This document shows, one piece after another, positions 42,994 through 45,804 of a stretch of 64,000 nucleotides of DNA. Made by a program: the position numbers and the translations under genes. The DNA is from Carboxylicivirga sp. M1479. Lineage in GTDB: Bacteria; Bacteroidota; Bacteroidia; Bacteroidales; Marinilabiliaceae. Under the pieces are notes generated by a model that did no database searches, was not told where the DNA came from, and worked only from the letters and a program-made list of their open reading frames with translations. Numbering within the stretch: position 1 is the first letter of the stretch; every line of letters starts with the position of its first letter. The stretch covers positions 1 to 64,000 of the forward strand of contig NZ_VKDE01000031.1 in NCBI RefSeq assembly GCF_007097485.1, in the 5' to 3' direction.

Positions 42994-43170
42994 TTGGGGA
43001 AAAAGAAGTATTCACGGCCTGTTATCCAATCGTATGATCTGGATAGAGATATTTGTTTGGTATTGTCATCCGATGGGTTTGGCGAACTACCAACGCCTCC
43101 TGGTACGCAAAAAACTGATGCTGTAAATACATTTGATGAAAACCCATTTGACCAAACAGCATTTGAATAG
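42994..43170 (+). CDS. small acidic-tailed peptide, TTG start
   Basis: A 58-codon frame starting at a TTG: MGKKKYSRPVIQSYDLDRD, then a hydrophobic ICLVLSS, then DGFGELPTPPGTQ and an acidic tail ending NPFDQTAFE. The layout (KKY-x-P-x-I start, short hydrophobic patch, Gly/Pro and Asp/Glu-rich tail with NPF) is like the many short Bacteroidales peptides of unknown role. An AAGGGG purine stretch precedes the start. No ATG is available in frame. Real but unproven. Confidence 0.45.
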   Translation: MGKKKYSRPVIQSYDLDRDICLVLSSDGFGELPTPPGTQKTDAVNTFDENPFDQTAFE

Positions 43171-43341
43171 TTAACTGTTGAAAGCGATTAGCTGTGGATT
43201 CATGAGCTGAGACGAAATGCGATAATTGCCTTACTTGTTAGCTATGTGTCACAATTTCTAAACTTCTAAATAGCAAATCTTCTGGAACAGGGGTTTGTTA
43301 CTCCCCATAGGAATTCAATAATCGGATGGTATAAAACAAAA

Positions 43342-43373
43342 AAAAGGAGAAACAAATTAATGTCTCTCCTTTT
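43342..43373 (-). terminator. terminator of GIY-YIG/tRNA unit 1
   Basis: AAAAGGAGA / TCTCCTTTT hairpin followed by T7 on the minus strand; the same hairpin recurs after each unit, 374 bp apart. Confidence 0.8.
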
Positions 43374-43375
43374 AG

Positions 43376-43453
43376 TGGGCGATGAGGGAGTCGAACCCCC
43401 GACCCTTCCGTGCATTGCAACGGAATGTTCTAAACCAACTGAGCTAATCGCCA
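43376..43453 (-). pseudogene. tRNA-Val-like sequence with aberrant anticodon arm (copy 1)
   Basis: Same body as the three neighbouring tRNA-Val genes (identical D-loop, T arm and acceptor 3' side), but base 1 is T so the 1-72 pair is lost, the D stem has a C-A mismatch (GCTC/GAAC), and the anticodon arm is replaced by TTCCG-TTGCAATGCA-CGGAA with a 10-nt loop. It is 78 nt long and lacks CCA (ends ACTA). Probably not a working tRNA. Its first nine bases carry the stop codon of the GIY-YIG gene. Confidence 0.6.
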
Positions 43454-43692
43454 TTGATAAGTTTGATAGTTCTTTGTTTACTCTTCCATTTTTTGACTTG
43501 TTTCTCTCTGTCAAAAGCTTCTTTTTTGGTTTTGTATATTTCGAAGTGTGCTACTTCCCAGTCACTAGCTTGTCCAGTGTAACCAATGTGCTTCATATTG
43601 TGCTTAGAAAGTCTTGATTCGAGCGTGTCGCAGGTCGCTCCGATGTAGTACTTATCTTTCGATGGCGAATGCAGGATGTAAAAGAAGTACAT
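43444..43692 (-). CDS. GIY-YIG nuclease family protein (copy 1)
   Basis: 82 residues, MYFFYILHSPSKDKYYIGAT, the minimal single-domain GIY-YIG (UPF0213/URI) fold. Active-site candidates are Tyr5 (FYIL), Tyr16 (YYIG), Arg27 (ESRLSKHN) and Glu63 (DREKQVKKWK). The last codons, ATC AAT GGC GAT TAG, are read from the 5' end of the adjacent tRNA-like sequence. Transcribed with the tRNA array. Likely a selfish or repair-type nuclease, substrate unknown. Confidence 0.8.
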   Translation of the reverse strand: MYFFYILHSPSKDKYYIGATCDTLESRLSKHNMKHIGYTGQASDWEVAHFEIYKTKKEAFDREKQVKKWKSKQRTIKLINGD

Positions 43693-43715
43693 TGGATTAG
43701 AATTTAGTGTACAAA

Positions 43716-43747
43716 AAAAGGAGAAATAAATTAATGTCTCTCCTTTT
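43716..43747 (-). terminator. terminator of GIY-YIG/tRNA unit 2
   Basis: Same hairpin as at 43342, one base different in the loop. Confidence 0.8.
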
Positions 43748-43749
43748 AG

Positions 43750-43827
43750 TGGGCGATGAGGGAGTCGAGCCCCCGACCCTTCCGTGCATTGCAACGGAAT
43801 GTTCTAAACCAACTGAGCTAATCGCCA
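43750..43827 (-). pseudogene. tRNA-Val-like sequence with aberrant anticodon arm (copy 2)
   Basis: Identical to copy 1 except that the conserved T54 of the T loop is C (CTCGACT for TTCGACT), a change that would hurt folding further. Confidence 0.6.
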
Positions 43828-44066
43828 TTGATAAGTTTGATAGTTCTTTGTTTACTCTTCCATTTTTTGACTTGTTTCTCTCTGTCAAAAGCTTCTTTTT
43901 TGGTTTTGTATATTTCGAAGTGTGCTACTTCCCAGTCACTAGCTTGTCCAGTGTAACCAATGTGCTTCATATTGTGCTTAGAAAGTCTTGATTCGAGCGT
44001 GTCGCAGGTCGCTCCGATGTAGTACTTGTCTTTCGATGGCGAATGCAGGATGTAAAAGAAGCACAT
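43818..44066 (-). CDS. GIY-YIG nuclease family protein (copy 2)
   Basis: Same 82-residue protein as copy 1 except MCFF for MYFF at residue 2; the other nucleotide difference inside the gene is silent. Catalytic residues are intact. It starts about 58 bases after the last true tRNA-Val gene. Confidence 0.8.
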   Translation of the reverse strand: MCFFYILHSPSKDKYYIGATCDTLESRLSKHNMKHIGYTGQASDWEVAHFEIYKTKKEAFDREKQVKKWKSKQRTIKLINGD

Positions 44067-44089
44067 TGGATTAGAATTTAGTGTACAAA

Positions 44090-44121
44090 AAAAGGAGAAA
44101 CAAATTAATGTCTCTCCTTTT
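44090..44121 (-). terminator. terminator after the tRNA-Val array
   Basis: Same AAAAGGAGA / TCTCCTTTT hairpin immediately 3' of the last tRNA-Val gene. Confidence 0.8.
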
Positions 44122-44123
44122 AG

Positions 44124-44198
44124 TGGGCGATGAGGGAGTCGAACCCCCGACCCCTTGGGTGTAAACCAAGTGCTCTAAACCAACTGAGCTAATCGCCC
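44124..44198 (-). tRNA. tRNA-Val (UAC), copy nearest the GIY-YIG units
   Basis: 75 nt cloverleaf: acceptor GGGCGAT/ATCGCCC, D stem GCTC/GAGC, anticodon stem CTTGG/CCAAG with loop TTTACAC (anticodon TAC), T stem GGGGG/CCCTC. The 3' end is followed by CTA, not an encoded CCA. Confidence 0.95.
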
Positions 44199-44221
44199 TA
44201 AAAATATATGTCGTGTTAATA

Positions 44222-44299
44222 TGGTGGGCGATGAGGGAGTCGAACCCCCGACCCCTTGGGTGTAAACCAAGTGCTCTAAACCAACTGAGCTAATCGCCC
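44222..44299 (-). tRNA. tRNA-Val (UAC), middle copy
   Basis: Identical cloverleaf to the neighbouring copies; the CCA tail is encoded (44222-44224). 23 bases separate it from the next copy. Confidence 0.95.
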
Positions 44300-44361
44300 T
44301 GAATATTTTCAGGTAATTTCAATAATTACATTTGTAATGATTTCGTTTAATCATTAATAGT

Positions 44362-44439
44362 TGGTGGGCGATGAGGGAGTCGAACCCCCGACCCCTTGGG
44401 TGTAAACCAAGTGCTCTAAACCAACTGAGCTAATCGCCC
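44362..44439 (-). tRNA. tRNA-Val (UAC), first copy of the array
   Basis: Identical cloverleaf, CCA encoded (44362-44364). It is the first in the transcript, about 24 bases after the predicted start site. Confidence 0.95.
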
Positions 44440-44469
44440 CTTTGTGCTGATCTCCTTAGAAAAGCGATG

Positions 44470-44501
44470 CAAATGTATGTCTCTTTTTTCTCTCCTCCAA
44501 A
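44470..44501 (-). promoter_or_regulatory. promoter of the tRNA-Val array
   Basis: Minus strand: TTTG (44501-44498), 20-bp spacer, TACATTTG (44477-44470), a complete Bacteroidetes -33/-7 promoter. It directly follows the folC stop codon. Confidence 0.7.
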
Positions 44502-44502
44502 T

Positions 44503-45804
44503 TTAATTGATGTTTTCTAAAATATCCGCAACGATAAATGTGCTTCCTCCAATGAAAATCAGATCGTTGTCAGATGCATTTTTTTTAGCAGCCTCAAGTG
44601 CTTTGTCAACCGAATGGTATGTTTTGCCATTTAGTCCGTGCTTTTGGGCCATCTCTTGCAGTGTATTTTCGTTTAAACTACGTGGTATGGATGCCTTGGT
44701 AAAATAATAGCTAGCTTTTTTCGGAAGTATATCTAAAACAGCTTCATGGTCTTTGTCGTTAACCATGCCAAGTACAAAATGTAATTGATCGTGAGGCGTA
44801 TTTTGTATTTGCTCCACAAGCATTATCATTCCATCAAGGTTGTGCCCCGTATCACAAACTATTCTTGGGTTATAGCCCAGGTGTTGCCATCTGCCTAACA
44901 ATCCCGTGTTATTTACCACATTTTCTAAACCATCGTAAAGGTGCTTAGTAGTGATAGATACCCCTTGTTTTTGCAATTGTTCAACGCACGCTAAAACGGT
45001 AATGATGTTTTTTTGCTGATAGCTACCTAATAAATCCAGTTTTAAATCTTTATAAACTAATTGTTCATCTTTATATATCTGGAAAATCTGCTTCTCATCA
45101 ATAGAAAATGTCGCAGTTGATATTTCGAAATTTTGATCGGCAAAAACAATGTTTGTTTCTTTCTCTTTTGCAACAGCTTTAAAGACTGGGGCTGTTTGTG
45201 TATGGCTTTGTCCAATAATTAAAGGGACGTCTTTTTTAATAATGCCCGCTTTTTCATAGGCAATTTTATCCAACGAATTACCTAGGAAAGCAGTATGGTC
45301 AAGACCAATGTTGGTAATGGCTGATATTAATGGTGAAATTATATTGGTAGAATCAAGACGACCTCCCATGCCTACTTCCATAATGGCGATGTCAATCTCT
45401 TCCTTTTTGAAATAGTCAAATGCCATGGCAACCGACATCTCAAAAAATGATGGTTGTAGGGATTGGATTATTTGTTGATGTTGCCCTACAAAATCCACCA
45501 CTGCCTGCTCACTTATCATCTCGCCATTGATTCGAATTCGCTCGCGAAAATCTTTAAGGTGGGGCGAGGTATAGAGGCCTACTTTGTATCCAGCTTCTTG
45601 CAATATGGATGCAATGCAATGAGATACAGATCCTTTGCCGTTTGTTCCACCAATGTGAATTGTTTTATAAGCTTTATGCGGATGCTGAAAATATTTATCG
45701 AGAGCGAGCGTTGTTTCAAGATCTGCCTTATAGGCTGCTTTACCCACCCTTTGATACATGGGGAGTTGAGCGAATAAAAAGTCGAGCGTTTCTTTGTAAT
45801 TCAT
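44503..45804 (-). CDS. folC: bifunctional folylpolyglutamate / dihydrofolate synthase
   Basis: Adds glutamate to dihydropteroate and folates. 433 residues of the Mur-ligase type: P-loop HIGGTNGKGSVSHCIASIL near residue 51, MEVGMGGRLDSTNII, NIGLDHTAFLGNSLDKIAYEKAGI, and C-terminal FVLGMVNDKD. Close to and divergent from phoH. Confidence 0.93.
   Translation of the reverse strand: MNYKETLDFLFAQLPMYQRVGKAAYKADLETTLALDKYFQHPHKAYKTIHIGGTNGKGSVSHCIASILQEAGYKVGLYTSPHLKDFRERIRINGEMISEQAVVDFVGQHQQIIQSLQPSFFEMSVAMAFDYFKKEEIDIAIMEVGMGGRLDSTNIISPLISAITNIGLDHTAFLGNSLDKIAYEKAGIIKKDVPLIIGQSHTQTAPVFKAVAKEKETNIVFADQNFEISTATFSIDEKQIFQIYKDEQLVYKDLKLDLLGSYQQKNIITVLACVEQLQKQGVSITTKHLYDGLENVVNNTGLLGRWQHLGYNPRIVCDTGHNLDGMIMLVEQIQNTPHDQLHFVLGMVNDKDHEAVLDILPKKASYYFTKASIPRSLNENTLQEMAQKHGLNGKTYHSVDKALEAAKKNASDNDLIFIGGSTFIVADILENIN

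Follow-up and report, generated by a model that had tools for sequence, protein, structure and literature searches.

As far as the available part of its report goes, SegB of phages T4 and T6 is a free-standing GIY-YIG homing endonuclease that lies by tRNA genes, cuts inside them, and drives tandem amplification of tRNA and nuclease via homologous recombination (PMC13096335). In the same text, its authors see no isotype preference and give the motif RAWTSGAAC (PMC13096335), which to us reads as the reverse complement of the T-loop. A 2006 paper on the GIY-YIG superfamily (PMC1564403) mentions tRNA three times in its accessible text, never in connection with tRNA-linked units, and that text has no words beginning with Bacteroid. 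In the open PMC literature, we found phage SegB as the only tRNA-linked case and no chromosomal tRNA-linked GIY-YIG units. I-TevI and the other group I intron homing endonucleases are intron-borne, and many tRNA introns sit in the anticodon loop. Integrative elements of the tRNA-targeting kind integrate into tRNA genes, where they reconstitute an intact tRNA. Cleave and Rescue gene drives are engineered and combine a nuclease with a working copy of the disrupted gene, the rescue copy being recoded.

We analyzed a 64,000-nucleotide stretch of DNA from Carboxylicivirga sp. M1479 (the window). Its minus strand carries, in this order, tRNA-Val 1, 2, and 3, a terminator, and then twice the series of GIY-YIG gene, tRNA-like copy, and terminator (Table 1). 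The initial annotation had described a 374-bp unit occurring twice with 4 differences 3′ of three tRNA-Val genes, and we recovered all three tRNAs and both units (starts at 43339 and 43713, exactly 4 differences). It had also placed the unit boundary exactly at the tRNA 3′ end, which found no support, as the repeat continues through the terminator; the 67 nt from 44087 match the start of the first 374-bp unit with 0 differences. A CTA 3′ end is indeed common to tRNA 3 and both tRNA-like copies. However, its proposed role as a boundary mark had to be abandoned, since the tRNA 3′ end varies among congeners: the same tRNA ends in CACTTT or CACAGA in element-free congeners and in CACTTA in a relic-only congener. 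A similar terminator follows tRNA 3 in element-free congeners, and tRNA 3 in the window is indistinguishable from a native gene. The uninvaded tRNA-Val 1 and 2 are identical in sequence.

Table 1. Features of the tRNA-Val locus in the window
Feature	Coordinates	Strand	Remarks
tRNA-Val(UAC) 1	44365..44439	-	intact, without element; ARAGORN and Rfam (70.4 bits); present in congeners too
tRNA-Val(UAC) 2	44225..44299	-	intact, without element; ARAGORN and Rfam (70.4 bits)
tRNA-Val(UAC) 3	44124..44198	-	intact, element directly 3′; ARAGORN and Rfam (70.4 bits)
Terminator hairpin, interval between tRNA 3 and nuclease 1	44085..44122	-	
GIY-YIG nuclease gene 1, 82 aa	43818..44066	-	Pfam PF01541, 57 bits; model pLDDT 91.7
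tRNA-Val-like copy 1, hairpin-marked	43750..43827	-	TTCCGTTGCAATGCACGGAA in place of anticodon arm; contains nuclease 1 stop codon
Terminator hairpin, copy 2	43711..43748	-	
GIY-YIG nuclease gene 2, 82 aa	43444..43692	-	1 residue different
tRNA-Val-like copy 2, hairpin-marked	43376..43453	-	contains nuclease 2 stop codon
Terminator hairpin, copy 3	43337..43374	-	array end

Each tRNA-like copy reproduces tRNA-Val from base 2 through to its 3′ end, except that a 20-base hairpin stands in for the anticodon arm; it thus differs from tRNA-Val in the first acceptor base and the anticodon arm. Because the first acceptor base is altered, the copy could hardly be a working tRNA; the two copies scored 40.5 and 36.5 bits with Rfam vs. 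70.4 for the tRNA-Val genes. The nuclease stop codon, TAG, lies within GGCGATTAG at the start of the tRNA-like sequence, and a hairpin and T run follow 3′ of each copy, both as initially annotated; that the tRNA serves chiefly as a stop-codon donor found no support. The D arm of this copy has decayed in Carboxylicivirga marina and one more congener, in which the hairpin is still paired. A comparison of the window with C. marina shows one stem pair of the hairpin changed on both sides, from T-A to C-G. The genome from which the window comes has a second element, in which nuclease copies follow two tRNA-Asn genes (contig C1 64906-65441) and the tRNA fragments contain TCCCGA hairpins. The window also holds annotation traps: ARAGORN reports a tRNA with anticodon “caat” at 43375-43453, and the open frame of nuclease 2 extends back into tRNA sequence (43444-43794; 116 aa, matching Pfam PF01541 at 55.3 bits when scanned as such). 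A 58-aa frame at 42994-43170 is 41% identical to one that lies near this locus in C. marina (L008, 1083-1247).

This layout departs from each of the known systems. Integrative elements that target tRNAs have a recombinase, whereas we found no site-specific recombinase in the 374-bp unit, whose sole gene matches GIY-YIG only and which has hairpin-marked tRNA copies instead. Unlike the intron-borne homing endonucleases, the element matched no intron family (window 43000-44700, E up to 1) and has an intact tRNA alongside. SegB is a phage gene of proven activity, whereas elements of the window type are chromosomal and their cleavage is predicted from sequence. Hairpin-marked tRNA copies belong to the window-type elements and go unmentioned for SegB in the part of its report available (PMC13096335).

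The 82-aa nuclease comprises a single GIY-YIG domain, and neither Pfam nor the structure model revealed an additional DNA-binding domain that would account for isotype specificity. The catalytic residues of the domain are kept, in agreement with the initial description of a minimal GIY-YIG gene with intact catalytic residues; Y5, Y16, G18, R27, H31, N32, and E63 are among the positions invariant in 20 aligned relatives. By sequence and fold, the nearest solved structures are the UPF0213 proteins (1zg2 and 1ywl), followed by SLX1 and I-TevI. The sequence profile matched 1zg2 with an E-value of 2.4e-12; Foldseek matched GIY-YIG structures, every E-value being >0.001, and the match to I-TevI, with which the catalytic fold is in common, was weak. 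The nuclease is evolving under purifying selection (dN 0.077, dS 2.8, and dN/dS 0.03 against C. marina). Among 19 nuclease pairs, dS was saturated in 8, and the highest dN/dS in the remainder was 0.45.

Matches to the nuclease were found in 32 of 60 relatives and in 255 of 395 genomes across the phylum (up to 13 candidates scored per genome). From the latter search, we took the 110 loci, the window’s own among them, that ranked highest against a profile made for the most part of tRNA-linked proteins. In all, 134 loci were considered, of which 118 were testable and 16 were partial or at contig ends; six UPF0213-like loci were set apart before counting, after their tRNA-free context had been seen. 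An adjoining tRNA or tRNA-like sequence was found at 114 of the 118 testable loci (114 of 124 if the six UPF0213-like loci count as misses), and no tRNA was found at the other 4. At 100 loci, the tRNA was upstream on the same strand at a distance of no more than 500 bp, with a median gap of 52 nt (over 103 loci with an upstream tRNA, partial ones included). Another 14 loci had it downstream or in some related arrangement, and one of the 14 (L017) has tRNA-like sequence only. The labeled isotypes were Asn, Val, Asp, Met, Gly, Ala, Ser, Lys, Phe, Pro, Arg, and Thr. Multiple nuclease copies occurred at 50 of 134 loci, and 48 of 95 spacers of at least 25 nt contained a hairpin followed by T’s (1.35 in shuffles). 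At one locus (L012), several tRNA-Val-like copies that ARAGORN does not name stand in a row, some without an intervening nuclease gene.

Because the profile was biased toward tRNA-linked proteins, we also carried out a census of every Pfam GIY-YIG place in eight complete single-contig genomes. This gave 103 places; 17 with frames of at least 400 aa were set aside, and the other 86 were grouped by hand into 53 loci. Thirty of these small-GIY loci were tRNA-linked, 29 within our limits (500 bp before and 300 bp after) and one (L257) ∼545 bp after a tRNA, and Leu and Cys were added to the isotypes. At an A1 E-value of 1e-18 or lower, 25 of 29 loci were near a tRNA. By chance, ∼0.3% of strand-specific positions would fall in the 500 bp that follow a tRNA, given 42-65 tRNA genes in each genome. 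Of the 23 loci without an adjoining tRNA, 18 were of UPF0213 or TN type and one (L250) of another type by eye; no tRNA was found at L264 and L268, and the pieces flanking L267 read by eye like the start of a tRNA-Leu. Scattered, tRNA-free homologs, the outcome that would count against tRNA association, were looked for in both samples, and linkage prevailed at 114 of 118 and 30 of 53 loci. The UPF0213-like proteins are the closest solved relatives by sequence and fold, but their loci and similar ones lie away from tRNAs (0 of 6 loci and 0 of 18 in the census tRNA-linked, as sorted by eye with the context already known). The six UPF0213-like controls fall inside the Val part of the weakly resolved nuclease tree, and their genomic context differs. 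At L269 (543-1298), a nuclease gene of the same kind lies ∼160 bp after a tmRNA gene, with an apparent direct repeat of ∼50 bp on both flanks; a tmRNA copy 3′ of this nuclease was looked for and not found.

We then compared the tRNA sequences on either side of the nuclease. An upstream tRNA and sufficient sequence were available at 98 loci. At 67 of them, the neighboring tRNA recurs 3′ of the nuclease with a score beyond the 99th percentile for tRNAs of other isotypes; at the remaining 31, no fragment of the locus’s own tRNA exceeded the threshold. Most partial copies extend to the tRNA 3′ end, and spacer-inclusive alignments continue through the spacer. The order is mirrored, with a tRNA start fragment, the nuclease, and then the full tRNA, at the tRNAs for Ser and Arg, at some of those for Pro, and at a few others. 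Start fragments also lie upstream of the intact tRNA at 28 of 106 testable loci of ordinary order (a survey that includes seven extra tRNA-Ala loci, one of which, L185, is the same place as L076). The partial pieces can be as short as 15-16 nt, on either side of the nuclease. A perfect TCC..GGA hairpin marks 58 of 73 delimitable fragments (1.2 in shuffles and 0 of 73 in nuclease coding controls), the other 15 having none by the rule used. The hairpin takes the place of tRNA bases in registers that recur to the base: 26/27 to 44/45 in Ala, 28/29 to 45/46 in Val, 27 to 45 in Arg, mostly 50/51 to 59/60 in Asp, and mostly 37 to 48 in Met, with several registers in Gly and Asn (for Asn, mainly 28|36, 57|61, and 36|47). 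Hairpins of this kind are not confined to the elements. TCCCGA..TCGGGA palindromes are dispersed at 4-36 per genome in six genomes, a few of them inside elements, and the reversed pattern occurs 0 or 1 times. We found no tRNA or GIY gene in 20 palindrome stretches of two genomes picked away from known elements; such palindromes flank a 5S rRNA gene on each side (L180), and one lies where a cobalamin riboswitch ends (L183).

To relate the nucleases to their tRNAs, we built a tree (∼83 columns; many forks unresolved) from 135 nuclease domains; 113 carried one of 12 isotype labels. Nuclease clades track tRNA isotype across host families: the tree had 31 isotype changes, compared with 81.0 after shuffling (SD 2.6; minimum 72 of 1,000 shuffles) and 69.0 after shuffling within host family (SD 2.8; minimum 58 of 1,000). 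The nearest labeled row had the same isotype for 88 of 113 domains (11.6 expected), as did the nearest row from another host family for 55 of 113. Hairpin register behaved similarly. At 60 loci, it changed 21 times on the nuclease tree vs. 27.2 when shuffled within isotype and, within tRNA-Asn, four times vs. 8.4 (0 of 1,000 shuffles as low in either case). No such signal appeared within Gly (3 changes vs. 2.6 expected) or Asp (2 vs. 2.0), and the registers of Ala and Val are invariant.

Among close relatives, the element is present or absent at a fixed site, whereas fixation in all relatives would have spoken against mobility. In 14 Carboxylicivirga genomes, two (G011 and G004) have folC, three tRNA-Val genes, and the ABC gene contiguous with the element absent. 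The window genome is occupied, as is C. marina, judged by the ABC gene 3′ of its nuclease copies. In G009, where the contig ends in an apparent nuclease start, the site is probably occupied, and G010 keeps an apparent relic start. No nuclease was found in the stretch covered in G002, G003, and G005, and the remaining contigs end too early. For tRNA-Ala(GGC) in a genus of Flavobacteriia, we examined 30 loci, the best of 61 genomes searched. The tRNA was in the expected orientation at 26 (three of another sequence type), and a nuclease accompanied 7 of these (one broken, L195). The sister of one occupied locus, with a 97% identical neighbor protein, is empty, and some empty loci, such as L201, keep a hairpin relic. 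Of 30 loci read for tRNA-Gly in another family, 11 had the tRNA by the same neighbor gene; 5 of these had a nuclease match (two partial) and 6 had none.

Several species of one genus have the element at the same position. For eight occupied species at one locus, the trees of the nuclease and of the neighboring gene conflict: the nuclease data reject the neighbor grouping (AU p 0.009 for protein and 0.0002 for DNA), and the neighbor data reject the nuclease grouping (AU p 0.0009), in a test of ∼83 columns in which the groups were named after identities had been seen and the neighbor grouping is itself weakly supported. Old paralogs with differential loss could mimic this conflict. The highest cross-genus protein identity was 73%, so that no very recent wide transfer was caught. 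Searches found no phage carriers of the window protein and, for this and one Met-type protein, no matches in viral contigs.

An insertion can be delimited at the tRNA-Ala locus by comparing occupied L202 with its empty sister L197. The host sequences of the two match through tRNA base 27 (135 bp, 95.6%), and the match resumes at base 46 (899 bp, 86.8%). Between these points, L202 has an imperfect hairpin, a complete tRNA-Ala with terminator, the nuclease, and a second hairpin; a comparison of L185 with L186 places the breakpoints at bases 27 and 45. The native tRNA-Ala gene is thus split at the anticodon arm. The insert’s tRNA-Ala and terminator are 94-95% identical over ∼121 bp to those of L199 and L203, from another host clade, whereas their match to L197 stops 8 bp after the tRNA; they thus look foreign in L202. 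By contrast, L215 has a native-looking terminator on the left and a foreign-looking one on the right. This rules out that the donor terminator always lies on the left. We searched seven genomes, and all four occupied ones had one near-identical full tRNA-Ala(GGC), that of the insert. What is left of the native gene is a start fragment and an end fragment (in G482, only the end fragment was found). The other 15 full-length matches (87% identical) were all tRNA-Ala(UGC). Because the only intact copy found is the insert’s, the host presumably could not lose the insert without losing tRNA-Ala(GGC). We saw no recoded, cleavage-proof rescue tRNA, and the arm alleles of tRNA-Ala do not segregate by occupancy.

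Linkage, partial-tRNA units, empty alleles, conflicting trees, and tandem arrays bear out the initial suggestion of a tRNA-associated element. The element consists of a minimal GIY-YIG gene, often behind the terminator of a tRNA and commonly with a hairpin-marked partial copy of the same tRNA. Probably, the window unit is one copy of a phylum-wide, isotype-specific class of homing-type selfish elements in or beside tRNA genes, for which the tRNA sequence would serve as both target and homology arm, and we infer from the sequences that they propagate by cleavage. The nuclease would cut the tRNA gene of the matching isotype in or close to the arm exchanged for the hairpin, and the host would repair the break from the element-bearing allele with the tRNA sequence as homology. 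The hairpin would delete the target from the element’s own arms, and recombination between tRNA copies could yield the tandem arrays. The anatomy fits homing of this kind as well as tandem growth like that of SegB. The partial copies lose one arm to the hairpin, whereas the adjacent intact tRNA is unchanged and keeps the presumed target arm; low expression behind the terminator is one possible shield for it. Since this intact neighbor keeps the arm and tRNA-Val 1 and 2 are uninvaded, the activity of the element may be low or need flanking sequence. Counting against homing are the junctions, which differ among loci (L202 vs. L215), the 31 loci with no fragment of their own tRNA above the threshold, the 15 fragments with no hairpin, the lack of a register signal within Gly and Asp, the cross-genus identity of at most 73%, the missing additional DNA-binding domain, and the few loci at which no tRNA was found (4 of 118, and L264 and L268 in the census).

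Instead of homing, the gene may have arisen or landed once per tRNA and been inherited since, with tandems made by unequal crossing-over and the isotype clades reflecting descent. Cross-genus identities of at most 73%, near-identical tandem copies, and a position common to several species of one genus would all agree with such a static passenger. We nevertheless consider it unlikely, since presence differs between sister species at one locus, the nuclease and neighbor trees each reject the other’s grouping, and the hairpin register tracks nuclease clade within tRNA-Asn. Slightly less credible is a system at the RNA level, in which the substrate of the GIY-YIG protein would be the matching tRNA or its precursor, and the tRNA-like RNA with its hairpin would serve as a decoy or antidote, much like the RNA of type III toxin-antitoxin systems. 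Isotype specificity, the tRNA-like sequence adjoining the nuclease gene, and the two-sided change of one hairpin pair between the window and C. marina would suit it. However, tRNA pieces dwindle to 15-16 nt on either side, the relatives in sequence and fold are UPF0213, SLX1, and I-TevI, and native tRNA genes are split at the DNA level.

That tRNA genes are the usual integration sites of elements that restore an intact tRNA raises the thought that the nuclease is cargo left behind by lost tyrosine-recombinase integrative elements. We regard this as very improbable: the 374-bp unit has no integrase and room for one small gene, and the 5′ and 3′ parts of the tRNA as well as internal arms are all used. 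The least plausible reading, to which we give almost no credence, is a domesticated repair nuclease that homogenizes tRNA gene copies for the benefit of the host. Its SLX1-like relatives, purifying selection, and the near-identical tandem units point in that direction, but its patchiness in close relatives, the relics, and the split host tRNA contradict it.

For the homing-type element, the tRNA-Ala locus offers a further, tentative reading as a natural form of cleave and rescue, which we hold to be possible rather than probable. The nuclease would break one tRNA gene at one arm, and the element would supply a working tRNA on which the host comes to depend, the native gene ending as a hairpin-scarred or split pseudogene; clades would be specialized by isotype and arm and share the hairpin as scar or shield. 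This reading rests on one tRNA-Ala locus in several species. It resembles Cleave and Rescue drives in pairing a nuclease with a working copy of the disrupted gene, whereas those drives are engineered and no recoding was seen at the natural loci.

These results turn poorly described small GIY-YIG genes of Bacteroidota into an apparent family of tRNA-gene parasites, whose target sites can be read, since isotype, arm, and base register are recorded in many loci. They also explain a source of annotation errors, in which false tRNAs are called and nuclease frames extended into tRNA sequence. The family would provide a natural parallel to nuclease-plus-rescue gene drives and a way in to how an 82-residue nuclease may distinguish tRNA genes.
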